From: Rhizophlyctis rosea
Taxonomy: Eukaryota > Chytridiomycota > Chytridiomycetes > Rhizophlyctidales > Rhizophlyctidaceae
Reading direction: 5' to 3'
DNA: 64,000 bases
Assembly: GCA_027596075.1 (NCBI GenBank)
Contig: JADGJC010000174.1
Coordinates: forward strand, 21,998-85,997
Under the pieces are notes generated by a model that was given only the letters and a program-made list of their open reading frames with translations, had not been told where the DNA came from and did not search any database. Each line of letters starts with the position of its first letter. The first letter of the stretch is position 1. Below, piece after piece: positions 1,376-43,600 of the stretch. The translations under genes were made by a program, and so were the position numbers.

Positions 1376-3450
1376 CTCGTAGCCAAACTTTGAGGAGAAT
1401 GTTATTGGACCTTTTTAGTTTGTGTTGTTTGAGGTGTTTTGTCTGTAGTTTTCAATTCATGTGAATGAATGAGGCCTCATATCATGAAATATGTTTAACT
1501 TTGGAAGGTGATATGGAGCTGTGGCACTTGGGAGCTTTGTGGTGGTCGGGGCCCCAGCGAGCGGACTGGTCTTTTGATGTACTATAGCCGTGACGGGTAG
1601 AGGTATCTTGGTAGGACTGCAAAGCTGGCGGCGTCCTCATGTAAGCTTGCTCTTCGCTCTTAGAAAAACTCATGGCTACAACACATTTCGATGAACGAAT
1701 TTGTCGATGGCGAGTTGATATATTGGTGACGAACCATAAGAACTACAAAGCTGTTGTACTCCATGCCTTTGGATTCCAAAAGCACTTTTCCCGATCCAAA
1801 ATCCTGATCAATGCTGAAGAGCCGTGATGTGCGGACGGACACATCAGGAACTCTTGCACGGGGCAACCCCTCGACCGCAACGTATCCCTAGCACTCTAAG
1901 CAACACTCCCCAGTCTGATCATTACTGTTCCTTCCCCCAAATAGGGAGCTTGATGGAGTGCGGCCGGTCGGTTGCCCAACACATCAACCAGGCATGAATC
2001 CAGCTCTTATGCTAGCGCATTCGCACAATATGAGGCACCCCAGATCTCTGAGCATACCTACCGCACTGAGATCAAGCTGCGAGGCTCAACCTCCATCCAA
2101 CTGAAGGAACGTGGGGTCATTGCCACGAATCCGCCGACACGTTCGAGTTTGTTGTTCCCTCCAAATACATCTATCTAATGCTACAGATTTCGAGGAATAT
2201 TGAACCTTATCCTCGGCTTCTTGTGTGTTCTTGAGAGAGGGTGGAGATGGAGGCAACGCTCTCGTAGTCTATGCGATTTGGTGAATCCGCGACCGCCGAC
2301 CGACTGGTAGATGCTGGAATTCGAGTTAGCCGTGACAGACTACACTCCCAGCGGATGCTTTTTTGGGTCAAAAACTGACTCTGGTTGATGTGAGGCTCTT
2401 AACCGACACATCGCACTTGACTGGTGACGATGATATAAAGTCGTGCGAGTTGAAGTCACCGAGGCGAAAGCGGAAAGTCGACCAGAGGGTAGATTCTGAG
2501 ATTCGATTTGGCCATGACAGACCACACTCCCAGCGGATGCTTTTTTGAGCAAAAAAATGGCTCTGGTTGATGTGGGCCCTTAAACATTCACATCCATCTT
2601 GAGCCCACGAAAGGCTTGTGTCACCGGCTATCACGGTTACTCTTGGCAAGTAGCGACGGATTGCACGCCAGCGCTCGAGCGCTTTCGCTGCTTCTGCTTG
2701 CTTTTGCGGCCGGTGCCGCGGAAGGGTATGAAGAGAGAGAAACTGATCACTGATCCATACAGTCAACCAAAAAGCAAACAAATGACACCACTCACCCAGA
2801 AATTTCCGTAACGATTCCCCCGTCCAACCAATCCGACAGGAGAGTTTACTGGTTAACCAGATGAGAAGCAGCGACCCAAAAAGGATCCGGAACTGGCCGC
2901 AATCGCGGGAGTCGACTAACCCTCGTGGGAACTTGCAAGTCGCTGCGGCGTTCAACTGCCAGGGCGCTGATGACCATAAAGACCACCCAGCGTTCCTGGC
3001 AGCCTGAGACATGAGACTTCGGTAAGTCCCGATGACCTCACACCAATCCACTGCTGCTTCACCACCCAGTACCCCAGTCCAGTCTTGAACCCCGATGGAT
3101 GTGGAAGGACGGTGAAGGAGAAAGGATGGTTATGGGAGATGGGCGATCAATTTGAGTGGTGTTTGAGGTCCTGGCGGTGAGTCACAGTGATGCAAGTGAG
3201 CTCTGACCAAATAGGGGCAAAGCAATTTGACCTGTTTGTGGCTGGTCTATTGTTGGGCTCTCACACTCTCACGCTCGTGTCAACCTCGCAGCTCCTTGAA
3301 CTTTCGCTCCATCTCCACAAGTGCGCATATCTTGCTACACCCACTTGTCCCTTCATAACATAATATCAGTCTTGCCACCAGTAACCTAGTGCGCTCAGAC
3401 ATGTCAGGCATAGCCCTGGTACAAATATAACCGAAGAACACACACTCAAT
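1376..3450. other. gene-poor stretch, 2.1 kb
   Basis: No conserved protein is visible on either strand. The longest open frame (2368-3051, minus) shows no recognisable motif and overlaps a duplicated segment. The only structure seen is the direct repeat at 2306-2602. The right end is presumably the promoter of the MIOS gene. Confidence 0.5.
2306..2602. repeat. imperfect direct repeat, two ~115-bp copies
   Basis: Copy 1 runs from about 2306 to 2421 and copy 2 from about 2488 to 2602, an offset of 182 bp. Both contain a shared block reading ACTCCCAGCGGATGCTTTTT (2342-2361 and 2525-2544), then CTCTGGTTGATGTG and a CTTAA-containing tail, with scattered substitutions and a small indel. I see no terminal inverted repeats or target-site duplications. 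Confidence 0.7.
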
Positions 3451-35805: not shown

Positions 35806-36402
35806 TTCTTGCTGTAGCAAAACAAGGAGCGGGGGCTGAGACCCATCAATAGCTTAATCCGTGATACCAACTGTTATGCCACAAAGCAGAAGGGATCTCA
35901 ATGTCCATTCTCATTGAATCACTGGATGATCAAAATATTGAATGGAGATGGGTAGCACCAGACTTTCTCCCAGTGACTTGGGGTTGTTGGTAGACCTCTT
36001 TGAGGGACAGGACGCTCTTTGGGATTCTATCGAATTTGCTAGGCGAGCGAAAGGCGTCGCGTGCATCATTTGAGTCTGCATTATGCGACTGATGACCGCA
36101 TCGGATACATACACGGATATTCATTTGAAGATTGACAAGTTCGACAATTACACCTGGGGCCTCTGGACCGGCAAGTTTGAACCCTCGCGACTTGGTGGCC
36201 TGTGGCTTGCTATGGCTACAAGGTGGCTTGATTTCCCAGCCACAGATCGCCGGATGGGACGCGCCATAACCCTCAGTCGGATCCTGGCTTGCTCTCCATT
36301 CTCTCTTTCGTCCCACTCATTTCATCTTTTCGGCCAATTCACATTTTCCCATCCCATTCTCACCATCCATCAAGACCATCATTACACATCAACCACAAAC
36401 AA
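35806..36402. other. intergenic, ~600 bp
   Basis: No gene seen. The right end contains the shared upstream flank (CAAACAAGTCCATGTC at its edge) of the structured-RNA unit. Confidence 0.45.
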
Positions 36403-36752
36403 GTCCATGTCACGGATAGAGTGTTCCCTCTATGTACCGATCCCCCGTCTGATCCGGACCTTGTACACGAAGGGTGAGTTACCCGTACTTGGAACGGTGG
36501 CCAGGTTATATTACTAGCCTAAGCTACATGGTATCAGACGGAAAGGTGAAGTGCAGTAAGGCACCTAGGTGTCTTCCCGCTACACTGTCAGGATAAGTTT
36601 TGATCCGAACTGGGTACACAAGGGTGAGTTACCCGTACTCAGGGAGGTGGCCAGGTTATATTACTAGGCCGAAGCCCTTTCGGGGGTATCAAAATGGAAA
36701 TGACGGGCGGTGAGGGTATCATCTCTAGTGGGTTCGACTCCCACCATGGACC
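36403..36752 (+). ncRNA. structured-RNA candidate, unit 1 (tRNA-like ends, two internal domains)
   Basis: GTCCATG at 36403-36409 pairs with CATGGAC at 36745-36751. The latter directly follows a canonical T arm (stem GTGGG/CCCAC, loop TTCGACT, 36728-36744), exactly as in a tRNA. The T arm is also a perfect Pol III B box (GGTTCGACTCC). Inside are two copies of a ~95-nt domain closed by GTCTGAT/ATCAGAC (36447-36539) and TTTTGAT/ATCAAAA (36598-36694). Each holds a hairpin such as CTGGGTAC/GTACTCAG (36610-36642) and a GGCC...GGCC hairpin. A linker hairpin lies at 36558-36575. No normal D arm or anticodon arm is present, so this is not a standard tRNA. The strand is set by the T arm. I do not recognise the RNA class. 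Confidence 0.65.
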
Positions 36753-36756
36753 ATTC

Positions 36757-36783
36757 GACACAACACACGTTGTGTGTTGTGTC
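36757..36783. repeat. perfect 12-bp palindrome, 3-nt loop
   Basis: GACACAACACAC (36757-36768) and GTGTGTTGTGTC (36772-36783) flank GTT, four bases after unit 1. The right arm is nearly repeated after unit 2 (CGTTGTGTGTTGTTTG), but the left arm is not. Confidence 0.8.
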
Positions 36784-37014
36784 TTGGTTGTCTTGTGGAG
36801 GTGGTGGATGCTCGACTGTCACTTCGTCGATACTGCATGGTGAGTTGACTGTTTGTCACAGAAGGCGTTTCGTGATGCGCTCTAACCTTCATCCATCCTC
36901 AATGATACAAGCACCCATCCATCCTCAAGATACGAGCAAGCTCCATCAACATCCATCCATCCATTCATCCTCAAGATACAAGCAACTCGCAGCAACACAC
37001 TCCAACCTCAAACA
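36784..37014. repeat. spacer with three ~23-bp repeats
   Basis: The spacer between the two RNA units carries CATCCATCCTCAA..GATAC repeats at 36890-36913, 36916-36938 and 36961-36983, each ending (A/G)AGCA, mixed with CATC microsatellite. The last bases (CTCAAACAAGTCCATGTC into unit 2) match the flank of unit 1. Confidence 0.65.
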
Positions 37015-37377
37015 AGTCCATGTCGGATAGGATGCAACCTCTATGCACTGATCCGACGTCTGGTCTGGAACGAGTACATTAAGGGAAAGCTTGCCCGTAC
37101 TCAGGAAGGTGGCCTGGACAGATTGTCGGGCCGAGCCCGCAAGGGTACTAGATGGAGGTGAAAGGCAGCAAGGAAATGGTCCTTCTCGCCACACTGTCAT
37201 GGAAATCTGGTCTGGACTGGGTACATTAAAGGGAAAGCTTGCCCGTACCCAGGAAAGTGGCCTGGACAGATTGTCGGGCTGAGCCCGCAAGGTTATCAGA
37301 TGGAAGTGATTGGCGGTGAGGGTGCATTCTAGGCCGATGCGCTTCGGCGCGAGTGGGTTCGACTCCCACCATGGGCC
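37015..37377 (+). ncRNA. structured-RNA candidate, unit 2 (paralogue of unit 1)
   Basis: Same plan as unit 1 with many sequence differences. GTCCATG (37015-37021) pairs with CATGGGC (37370-37376) through one G-U pair, again directly after the T arm (37353-37369, loop TTCGACT). The internal domains are closed by GTCTGGT/ACTAGAT (37057-37153) and ATCTGGT/ATCAGAT (37205-37301). The first hairpin of the second copy is CTGGGTAC/GTACCCAG (37217-37252). A CCC-GCAA-GGG GNRA hairpin lies at 37136-37145 and a linker hairpin AAGGA/TCCTT at 37170-37184. A GCGC-TTCG-GCGC hairpin (37339-37350) sits where a long variable arm would be and is absent from unit 1. The stems are conserved while their sequences differ, which argues for selection on structure. 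Confidence 0.65.
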
Positions 37378-37773
37378 ATAAATCGTTGTGTGTTGTTTGC
37401 GAGTGTATGTAGTTGTGCGTGATGGATATCTGATAAAGTTTTGTAATAAATGAGTGTGCACAATACTATACTGGTGCGTTGCGTCTGTGCCGTGAACATT
37501 ATTACACTCATATCGAATTTCAAAATCTGTTATATCAAACGACGATGCGTATCCTGCTTCATAGGTCTACATCTTAACCCCTCCTTCCTTCCGGGTATCC
37601 CTTGTTCCTTTGTCAACTTCACACACACATACATCCCTGCGTCAATCATGCAGCTGGCCACGCATGATTATGTTTTGAATGTTTATAAATTCGAATATCT
37701 ACAGCCAACCGGTATATACAACGCATGAACAGCATGCGTAAGTCGCCCGCCTAGAAAGCGGAACTGAAGCACT
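37378..37773. other. intergenic, ~400 bp
   Basis: 3' flank of RNA unit 2 and of the F-box/ankyrin gene. No gene seen. Confidence 0.5.
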
Positions 37774-41240: not shown

Positions 41241-42734
41241 TTATTCCTCCTCCTCTGCTTCTTGAATCCTCTTCAACCCAGTACCTGCCTTTCCCTTCCA
41301 CCAGCGCGAACTCCCTAACCCACTGGATTTCCACCATTTGACCACCTCAACTTGACCATTCTCCTCCGCCACACGCAATGCAGCATCCGTAAACTTCATC
41401 TCTAACATGTTCCTCCGCCACCACAAATTCCATAGACCGTATCCGCCCTCTGGCCCCCTAATCGCTGCCTCCCTCCACCATTCCAAAACATCCACACGGC
41501 CGTCCCTGCTCGCAAGATACATCGCCCAGTGTGTATATTTCAGCTTCAATCCACTGGCCCACCACCATTCCAACACATCCACATGTCCTTTCCCACTCGC
41601 GAAATCAAGAGCATCCGCCGAATACTTCAATTCCAAGCCACTACTCTTCCACCATTCTAACACCGCAATATGGCCGTTCTCACTTGCACCGTCAATCGCG
41701 TCCTTCGTGTATTTCAGTTCGAGCCCGCTCCGTTTCCACCACTCCAGCGCGCCAACATGCCCGTGCGCGCTCGCGCCGTTAATCGCCCAATGCGTATAAT
41801 TTAGATCCTTCCCCCAACGCTTCCACCAATCTAAAATGTGAACGTGCCCCTGTTTACTCGCCCCGTCCAAGGCCCATCCCTCCCACCCAGCAGCTACTGA
41901 CTGTCGATGGTTGTCGTACCGCATCACCAACCCGCTCTTAGCCCACCATTCCAACACATCCAAATGACCGTTTAGGCTAGCCCAACTCAATGATCCTGAG
42001 GTATACACTAGGGGCAGGCCGCTATCTTTCCACCATTGTAAGACGGATACATGCCCATGTCTAGAAGCTTCATCCATGGCGTTTGAAGGGGAGAGGTACT
42101 TCAAGGTCAATCCGCTCGATTCCCACCATTGAAGGACCCGAAGGTGACCATTCATACTTGCTTCTCTCAGAGAATCACGGGAATAGAAAATCTTCATCCC
42201 ACTGTTCTTCCACCACTCCAACACCTCATGAAAGCCCTTGCTGCTGGCGGCATCCATGACATCTTCATAGTATAGGCGGTAAGGAACTTTGAGCGGGAGG
42301 TTGGAGGACTTCCACCAGTTGAGGACGGTGATGTGGTTGTTGTCGCACGCCTGTTGGATTGCCGCCCCTGTATACTTCAACTCAAGACCACTGGATAACC
42401 ACCAGTCTAGGACGGGAATGTGCTGGTTTTTGCTTGCGAGGTCCATTGCGTCTGATGAGTATGTGAGGAGGGGTGCCTTTCCGTGACCATTCGAGGCAGT
42501 CCTTTGATTTTTCCTTCTAGTGGCAACATGTGTCCACCAAGTAAGTAAGTCGACTTGTCCTTTCCGGGAAGCATCATCTAAGCTGGTGTAGGGAAGGATC
42601 GGAAGGACGCTGTCTCGGAGGTGGGGGTACCCATAACAAACTGCAAGGATAACACCGATTCGAAAGGAGGTCAAACGGGGGACGACGTCGTGAATGAGGA
42701 TCAGGTGGAGGAGTTCAACGGGCAGCTGGAGCAT
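41241..42734 (-). CDS. WW-type ankyrin-like repeat protein, intact
   Basis: Single exon, 497 aa. It begins MLQLPVELLHLILIHDVVPR, an F-box-like head. About 14 repeats of ~33 residues follow with the core VLEWWKxSGLxLKYTxxAxDxAS and GH turns. It is the intact relative of the interrupted gene at 34267-35805 on the opposite strand, about 6 kb away. The C terminus is basic then acidic (KRIQEAEEEE) and lacks the Cys cluster of its relative. The repeat is a strongly diverged ankyrin unit in which the second helix carries a fixed Trp-Trp. Molecular partners are unknown. Confidence 0.82.
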   Translation of the reverse strand: MLQLPVELLHLILIHDVVPRLTSFRIGVILAVCYGYPHLRDSVLPILPYTSLDDASRKGQVDLLTWWTHVATRRKNQRTASNGHGKAPLLTYSSDAMDLASKNQHIPVLDWWLSSGLELKYTGAAIQQACDNNHITVLNWWKSSNLPLKVPYRLYYEDVMDAASSKGFHEVLEWWKNSGMKIFYSRDSLREASMNGHLRVLQWWESSGLTLKYLSPSNAMDEASRHGHVSVLQWWKDSGLPLVYTSGSLSWASLNGHLDVLEWWAKSGLVMRYDNHRQSVAAGWEGWALDGASKQGHVHILDWWKRWGKDLNYTHWAINGASAHGHVGALEWWKRSGLELKYTKDAIDGASENGHIAVLEWWKSSGLELKYSADALDFASGKGHVDVLEWWWASGLKLKYTHWAMYLASRDGRVDVLEWWREAAIRGPEGGYGLWNLWWRRNMLEMKFTDAALRVAEENGQVEVVKWWKSSGLGSSRWWKGKAGTGLKRIQEAEEEE

Positions 42735-43600
42735 ACCGAGCGTAGCAAATGGGTGCTAAATGGGAAATTGCCGAGTGGTTGTGCGCTGACTGGGTAAGTG
42801 CTTTTCGACCCGGTTTCGTGAAATCTTGCTTTTGATGTTAGTGTTCTCAGTCACTTGGTGGTCTGCATTTTGAATGAGAAGACCTCTTGGACCAGCTGGA
42901 AATCCTCTGTGACACGAACATCTGTGGCCCGGATCCGACACGACGGTCATTTTCGCGTGTCCTGATAAAAGGACTGAGCCCACATTTTACGAGCTGGAGG
43001 ACCATTGCGACAAGACTAAGCGTTGAAATTCGGCATATGTATTGGGGAACCACCGCCCATACTGGGCGTAACAATATCAAGTTTCTACATCAAAAATGTA
43101 GGCCCGCAGGGACTTGAGAGTGATTGACATGTGATGTGGTGTAGTTGGTGTGAGTCACACGAACTTGCAAGGACCCTCGCGAAACAAGCCCGTATTGTGA
43201 TGGCATTCTTAAGCGCGGTCTTGTGCTTGAAGGCGGCCTCGGTAGGGAAAATGGGAGTTCTCGGTCACCGTGATAGCGGTGAAGTGGCAAAAGTTACCCG
43301 CCACGGGTGTTATGGAGGGACAATGGGCTTTACCGGTCTGAAAAATATGAGCTCCTTAATGTTCTCATAGGTGTGGTTCGAACCCACACTCAGATTTCAA
43401 TATCCTGCCCGGAGTCTGTCTGTTGCACCAATATCTCCGCGGTGGTGATGATAGTTCCACAGTTACTATGCTTTTAACGAATTTCCTAGGCCATATTACC
43501 GGCACACTATACTACATGTAACTCCACTCAATACATACTACAAGCTATCTGCTACATATAAACTACATGTGCGACATTCCGCCGCCTACCGTCAAGGGGC
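42735..43600. other. gene-poor stretch with several strong hairpins
   Basis: No protein gene. The plus strand carries perfect hairpins CGCCCA-tac-TGGGCG (about 43055), CTACAT-caaaa-ATGTAG (about 43085) and CACCG-tgatag-CGGTG (about 43266), ending in a tRNA-like T arm at 43371-43389. Part of this may be an RNA gene. Confidence 0.4.
43335..43395 (+). ncRNA. possible tRNA-like element lacking a D arm
   Basis: GTCTGA (43336-43341) pairs with TCAGAT (43390-43395), with one G-U pair. TATGAG (43346-43351) pairs with CTCATA (43364-43369) around a 12-nt loop, and GTGTGG/CCACAC (43371-43389) forms a T-type arm with loop TTCGAAC and a B box GGTTCGAACCC. The D arm is missing and the middle loop is too large for a normal tRNA, so this may be a tRNA-derived fragment or the 3' end of a longer RNA. 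Confidence 0.3.

Follow-up and report, generated by a model that had tools for sequence, protein, structure and literature searches.

A dispersed family of candidate structural RNAs with tRNA-like ends in the genome of the chytrid Rhizophlyctis rosea

Two neighbouring sequences in the window (the whole stretch of 64,000 nt of Rhizophlyctis rosea DNA that was analysed) begin and end in the manner of a tRNA and enclose a large body between these ends. Which kind of RNA they might encode is the question raised by this locus. An earlier note had described in the pair a large folded body framed by an acceptor stem and a T arm of tRNA type, had proposed a Pol III transcript class, a SINE-like family or a heavily expanded tRNA, and had asked for a covariation check on more copies and a comparison with known RNA families. 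When the sequence was read again, both units were found to start with GTCCATG, to end in its pairing strand immediately 3' of a canonical T arm, and to have the upstream flank CAAACAAGTCCATGTC in common, all as described. The boundaries of unit 2 were corrected (Table 1). The divergence of the two units under retained end pairing was also confirmed, with 68% identity overall and a U-G second pair in unit 2.

In unconstrained folding the acceptor stem of both units closed, with the pair probabilities given in Table 1, and the T arm was recovered. The folding-energy z-scores were only moderately low, at −2.9 for unit 1 and −2.8 for unit 2 (60 shuffles each). The body of each unit is folded, as the note had it, and is built with two copies of a 91–95-nt module, a feature absent from that description. 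In several cases (units 1, 2 and L032, by eye) the modules within one unit look more alike than those of different units, which suggests recent duplication or conversion.

Table 1. Features of the two units in the window.
Feature	Position	Strand	Basis or remark
Unit 1, subtype A short, 349 nt, two modules	36403..36751	+	pattern, folding
Unit 2, subtype A long, 361 nt, two modules and a hairpin at the anticodon-arm position	37016..37376	+	pattern, folding
Unit 1 acceptor 5' strand GTCCATG	36403..36409	+	pairs with 36745-36751, p 0.96-1.00
Unit 1 T arm GTGGG-TTCGACT-CCCAC	36728..36744	+	T stem fully paired in 41/41 units
Unit 1 acceptor 3' strand CATGGAC	36745..36751	+	sequence, folding
Unit 2 acceptor 5' strand GTCCATG	37016..37022	+	pairs with 37370-37376, p 0.84-1.00
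Unit 2 T arm GTGGG-TTCGACT-CCCAC	37353..37369	+	folding
Unit 2 acceptor 3' strand CATGGGC	37370..37376	+	second pair U-G
Unit 1 H2 (ring-closing helix) 5' strand TAGAG	36417..36421	+	pairs with 36723-36727, MFE
Unit 1 H2 3' strand CTCTA, abuts T arm, without anticodon arm	36723..36727	+	MFE
Unit 2 H2 strand TCGG	37023..37026	+	pairs with CCGA 37334-37337, MFE; same pairing found by RNAalifold in subtype B
Unit 2 second H2 strand TAGGATGCA	37028..37036	+	pairs with 37323-37331, MFE
Unit 1 module 1, 91 nt	36448..36538	+	module comparison
Unit 1 module 2, 95 nt	36599..36693	+	module comparison
Unit 2 module 1, 94 nt	37059..37152	+	module comparison
Unit 2 module 2, 95 nt	37206..37300	+	module comparison
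Unit 2 hairpin GCGC-TTCG-GCGC at the anticodon-arm position, UUCG tetraloop, without anticodon	37339..37350	+	folding
Unit 1 5' flank, pyrimidine-rich then A/C-rich, G-poor (candidate promoter or leader)	36313..36402	+	
GU-rich element 3' of unit 1	36769..36782	+	sequence
GU-rich element 3' of unit 2	37385..37399	+	sequence

Relatives were collected by DNA searches of the same genome and with a pattern of the T arm and 3' acceptor strand, and the catalogue covers this one genome. The pattern had 53 matches (at most three mismatches) against none for the reversed pattern and is therefore not due to chance. Forty of the 53 are units with a recognisable 5' strand; one further tandem unit on contig C16 brings the number to 41. 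The multi-copy nature suspected in the note is thus borne out by a dispersed and divergent family of 41 units of 84–529 nt, in at least four subtypes, in a chytrid genome of 44 Mb. Assigned by eye, 11 units belong to subtype A, 14 to B (two of these B2), 10 to C and four to D; a single unit, E, combines repeated modules with a run of N, and a mini unit measures 84 nt. Tandem unit pairs lie on the contig of the window (C84) and on C16, and contig C431 is a hotspot of the family, where about 66 kb (approximately 75.9–142 kb) hold eight units of subtypes A, B, B2 and E.

The 13 remaining pattern matches were left out of all counts. One of them, L061 on contig C57, is a relative of subtype A with a damaged 5' acceptor strand and, by eye, probably a degenerate relative or pseudogene. 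The mini unit (L042, contig C107) has the acceptor stem, D arm and T arm with the central body almost absent, and may represent a minimal form of the family. L088 (contig C627) and L107 (contig C279), with a T arm at the 3' end, an acceptor GTCTCTG/CAGAGAC and T runs upstream, are possibly a further unit type. Of seven further exact sites of the B motif, the one that was read, on contig C125 (L134), is by eye not a unit.

The tRNA-like ends are conserved throughout the family. All five positions of the T stem are paired in every unit, with pair changes that include U-A to C-G, and the T loop reads TTCRANT in 37 of 41. This loop agrees with the B-box consensus as well, as had been claimed for the T arm. 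Acceptor pairs 1, 4 and 7 are formed in 41, 41 and 40 of the 41 units respectively; in A, B/E and D nearly every position of the stem is paired, and in eight of 11 C/mini units U-U stands at pairs 5 and 6. Among eight units folded without constraint, the acceptor probability was only 0.46–0.48 in L056 and 0.29 at pair 7 in L035; the three C units among the eight gave 0.0 at pairs 5 and 6. Across the 41 units the 5' and 3' acceptor strands of one unit pair at −6.70 kcal/mol, compared with −5.14 kcal/mol for swapped strands (0 of 20000 permutations), a statistic that ignores the relatedness among units. For 21 of the 41 units the strand's own partner came out on top, the ranking being poor in subtype C. 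In 10 of 11 C/mini units there is a D hairpin of 4 bp or more (5–6 bp in nine of them) whose loop carries GG, the eleventh having only 3 bp; the loop GG is weak in the four D units, and in A and B an expanded arm stands in place of the D arm. The base at −1 is A or C in all 41 units. Immediately 3' of the acceptor no single base is fixed (C 27, A 9, T 5), and CCA is not encoded there.

Between these ends, the anticodon arm is absent or its place is taken by a UUCG hairpin or by large modules, and modules also occupy the position of the D arm. The covariation asked for was strong in subtype B. RNAalifold, run unaided on 11 of the 14 B units, returned the acceptor stem, H2, module stems, a GUUUGC hairpin and the T arm. 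In this alignment 94.9% of cells were paired and 13 of 48 pairs had changed on both sides, compared with 4.6 in shuffles; none of 500 shuffles matched any of five measures, and slid controls reached at most 6, a comparison in which the structure is favoured, being derived from the same alignment.

For subtype A, the consensus fold of eight units contained 87 pairs, of which 15 had changed on both sides, with the acceptor stem and T arm kept. Unit 2 and its relative on contig C20 share the TCGG-CCGA pairing, the second strand pairing beside it and then a small hairpin at the site of the anticodon arm. The second H2 strand is AGGGTGT with ACACCCT on C20 and GGGTG with CACCC on C442 (by eye). In the C135 copy the strands of the unit 1 H2 read TAGAGCG with TGCTTTA. 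Against this helix, its swap test in A-short units was not significant (7065/20000), and in the consensus fold of the eight A units (A1) no H2 was formed, the TAGAG strand lying in a local hairpin. A swap test on A-long and B together (524/20000) was set aside because the wrong place had been probed for B. In subtype C, a helix at the position of the anticodon stem pairs at −13.25 kcal/mol with its own strand and at −10.76 kcal/mol when swapped (86 of 20000 permutations), with displaced controls at 3346 and 17703 of 20000. CUUUUUG stands between complementary arms in 10/10 C and 3/4 D units (by eye), and the C/D consensus fold was poor (−9.8 kcal/mol). In the alignment of the modules, three of 19 pairs had changed on both sides. 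Energy z-scores over 25 A, C and D units (60 shuffles each) ranged from +0.1 to −4.8; those of L032 and L056 lay close to 0, and further units gave weak values.

The flanks were compared with control windows and with genes of the same genome. Upstream, the composition is C 0.37, T 0.34 and G 0.11 from −60 to −30, and A 0.36, C 0.33 and G 0.08 from −30 to 0. Pyrimidine hexamers occur in 27 of 40 units (0.186 of control windows) and TCTTTC in 17 of 40 (2.1 expected). The regions before five ORF starts in the window have a similar A/C-rich, G-poor part and are without the pyrimidine tract (C+T 0.52 at −60 to −30, compared with 0.71 for the units). Downstream, TGTGT or TTGTG was found within 50 nt in 20 of 29 units (0.073 of control windows) and AAUAAA-like hexamers, resembling poly(A) signals, in six of 29 (0.013). 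Where 58 nt or more of downstream sequence was available (27 units), a run of T4 or more within 40 nt was present in two units, compared with 12/12 tRNA genes of the same genome, taken from 63 matches listed (Fisher p 2e-8); for T5 or more the counts were 0/27 and 8/12. One of the other 14 units (flank 32–51 nt), B_C149, has T5 at 22 nt, giving 3/41 by eye. Within 100 nt, T4 or more was found in 10 of 27 units (0.27 of control windows). With pyrimidine-rich and A/C-rich sequence upstream, GU-rich and poly(A)-like elements downstream and Pol III terminators scarce, the flanks look like those of mRNA genes, unlike those of tRNA genes, and point to transcription by Pol II.

The reading that we prefer, with a probability of roughly 0.5, is that the units are genes of structural non-coding RNAs transcribed by Pol II, whose ends, folded as a tRNA-like domain, are trimmed by RNase P and RNase Z and whose modules act as scaffolds. 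RNA polymerase II would make a precursor with the pyrimidine- then A/C-rich leader and the poly(A)-type 3' flank. The two end portions of the unit would fold into a tRNA-like domain, with the acceptor stem beside the T arm and, in subtype C, a D arm, and this domain would close a ring in which one or more swappable structured modules replace the D arm, the anticodon arm or both. RNase P and RNase Z would recognise the domain as a tRNA elbow and release an RNA of 84–530 nt, its ends base-paired and thereby protected, to which CCA may be added, and the modules would serve as binding scaffolds.

A precedent for such processing exists in mammals. The mascRNA and menRNA are about 60 nt long, one at the 3' end of each of the long transcripts MALAT1 and NEAT1. 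According to two papers, RNase P and RNase Z excise them from Pol II transcripts, and no aminoacylation of mascRNA takes place (PMC11693755, PMC12941219); two D-loop guanosines of mascRNA form with the T loop the elbow that both enzymes recognise (PMC11693755), and MALAT1 and NEAT1 are given as the only known lncRNAs whose maturation relies on the tRNA-processing machinery (PMC12941219). The same parts are present in the units, most clearly in subtype C and the mini unit (a tRNA-like acceptor, a T arm and a D arm with two guanines that may meet the T loop, without anticodon loop), and for this reason we infer processing by the same two enzymes. The units differ from mascRNA and menRNA in the body, as long as about 500 nt, that stands between their tRNA-like ends, and in forming dozens of paralogues in a chytrid.

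The reading can be extended, more tentatively and at rather less than even odds, to a class of nuclear eukaryotic ring RNAs with a working tRNA-like closure, made by Pol II and matured by tRNA enzymes. In these RNAs the D and anticodon arms would have become sockets for interchangeable, duplicating modules, and the plan of tmRNA would have been reached independently, in dozens of versions within one chytrid. If true, at least 41 candidate chytrid genes would suggest that the tRNA elbow is a more general device for giving RNAs defined and protected ends; they would offer natural module swaps from which to learn what the ring bodies bind, and would put the substrate requirements of RNase P and RNase Z to the test.

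The strongest rival shares the Pol II origin and takes the tRNA-like fold as a mere terminal clamp beside a poly(A) site, the RNA being capped, polyadenylated and uncut by RNase P and RNase Z. The poly(A)-like hexamers and GU-rich elements agree with it, as do the variable base after the acceptor and the U-U mismatches in the acceptor stems of subtype C, but a clamp leaves unexplained why the T loop has the tRNA form, why the D loop carries GG, why the acceptor stem has the length of that of a tRNA and why −1 is always A or C. We regard it as unlikely, while giving it some weight.

The transcript class first suggested, Pol III genes that use A and B boxes and terminate in an unusual way, fared much worse and is very improbable. 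It could draw on the B box in the T arm and on a CAA-type start ahead of the unit. The terminator count speaks against it, an internal run of T5 or more is present in 14/14 C and D units (though some yeasts stop Pol III only at longer T runs), and by eye no clear A box was seen in A and B. Judged by these sequences, the units are not ordinary Pol III genes.

A SINE, or a retroposed repeat of another kind whose ends derive from tRNA, is just as improbable. The units share a B box and dispersed copies with tRNA-derived SINEs, and two close pairs, the B2 pair (93% identity) and B_C1/B_C149 (88%), have unalignable upstream flanks, the upstream side alone having been compared; precise retroposition may account for these pairs. 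Unalignable flanks are usual for strongly conserved RNA genes. Target-site repeats were not found in the 41 units taken together: the longest match between the flanks of one unit averaged 3.95 nt, compared with 3.87 nt for swapped flanks, and a match of at least 8 nt occurred in one unit (9 nt, the longest) compared with 0.4% of swapped flanks. Among ten close pairs examined, three A pairs are similar in both flanks, above all 100 shuffles. The tRNA parts at both ends, the structural covariation, the shared flank signatures and the tandem pairs also argue against a SINE, and the SINE-like family of the note found no support.

Least credible are pre-tRNA genes whose anticodon loop is interrupted by a giant intron: ARAGORN, when introns of up to 3000 nt were allowed, read unit 2 as tRNA-Leu(GAG) with a 268-nt intron, and subtype C has its helix at the anticodon-stem position, but calls were made in only six of 41 units and were mutually inconsistent (Leu, Ser, Ala (2), Gln (2)), unit 2 has a UUCG tetraloop and unit 1 nothing at the anticodon-arm position, and a U33-type anticodon loop was not seen by eye in subtype C. 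Without introns, ARAGORN made no call within the window. With tRNAs the units share the acceptor stem, the T arm and a cloverleaf outline, and in subtype C the D arm too; they differ in their length and in having no ordinary Pol III terminator. From the idea of a heavily expanded tRNA the cloverleaf outline remains, with inserts in the D and anticodon arms, and decoding falls away, since no consistent anticodon loop has been kept.

The comparison with known RNA families gave no Rfam 15 match, either in the window at the gathering score or at eight loci with E up to 5. In tmRNA, a large ring is closed by a tRNA-like domain. The same plan, without a tag frame, had been seen in the two units and was upheld; a conserved ORF across units was not found. 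The units differ from tmRNA in lacking an ARAGORN tmRNA call (at the loci of this genome) and an Rfam match, in lying in nuclear DNA and in the paired D stem of subtype C. Descriptions of such RNAs were not found in the open-access literature searched, and chytrids are not mentioned in the available part of PMC5640933. The RNA family and its architecture, function being outside this claim, could be placed in no known family.

The patterns were also searched for in other DNA. The T-arm pattern was found in 24 viral stretches, in 19 of which ARAGORN places a tRNA ending at the match; of the five without such a call, two are cut off by the end of the stretch. Patterns of the 5' end matched 12 and 3 viral and 76 prokaryote stretches, the 76 being close to the number estimated for chance (about 60). 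In none of these 91 was a T arm with acceptor strand present within 700 nt downstream, some stretches ending sooner.

Downstream of unit 2, positions 41241–42755 of the window encode on the minus strand an ankyrin-like protein with WWKSSGL repeats. Its named relatives among the 120 matches listed are mostly from zoosporic fungi (Zopfochytrium, Rhizophlyctis rosea, Cladochytrium, Catenaria and Allomyces) and viruses of the mimivirus group.
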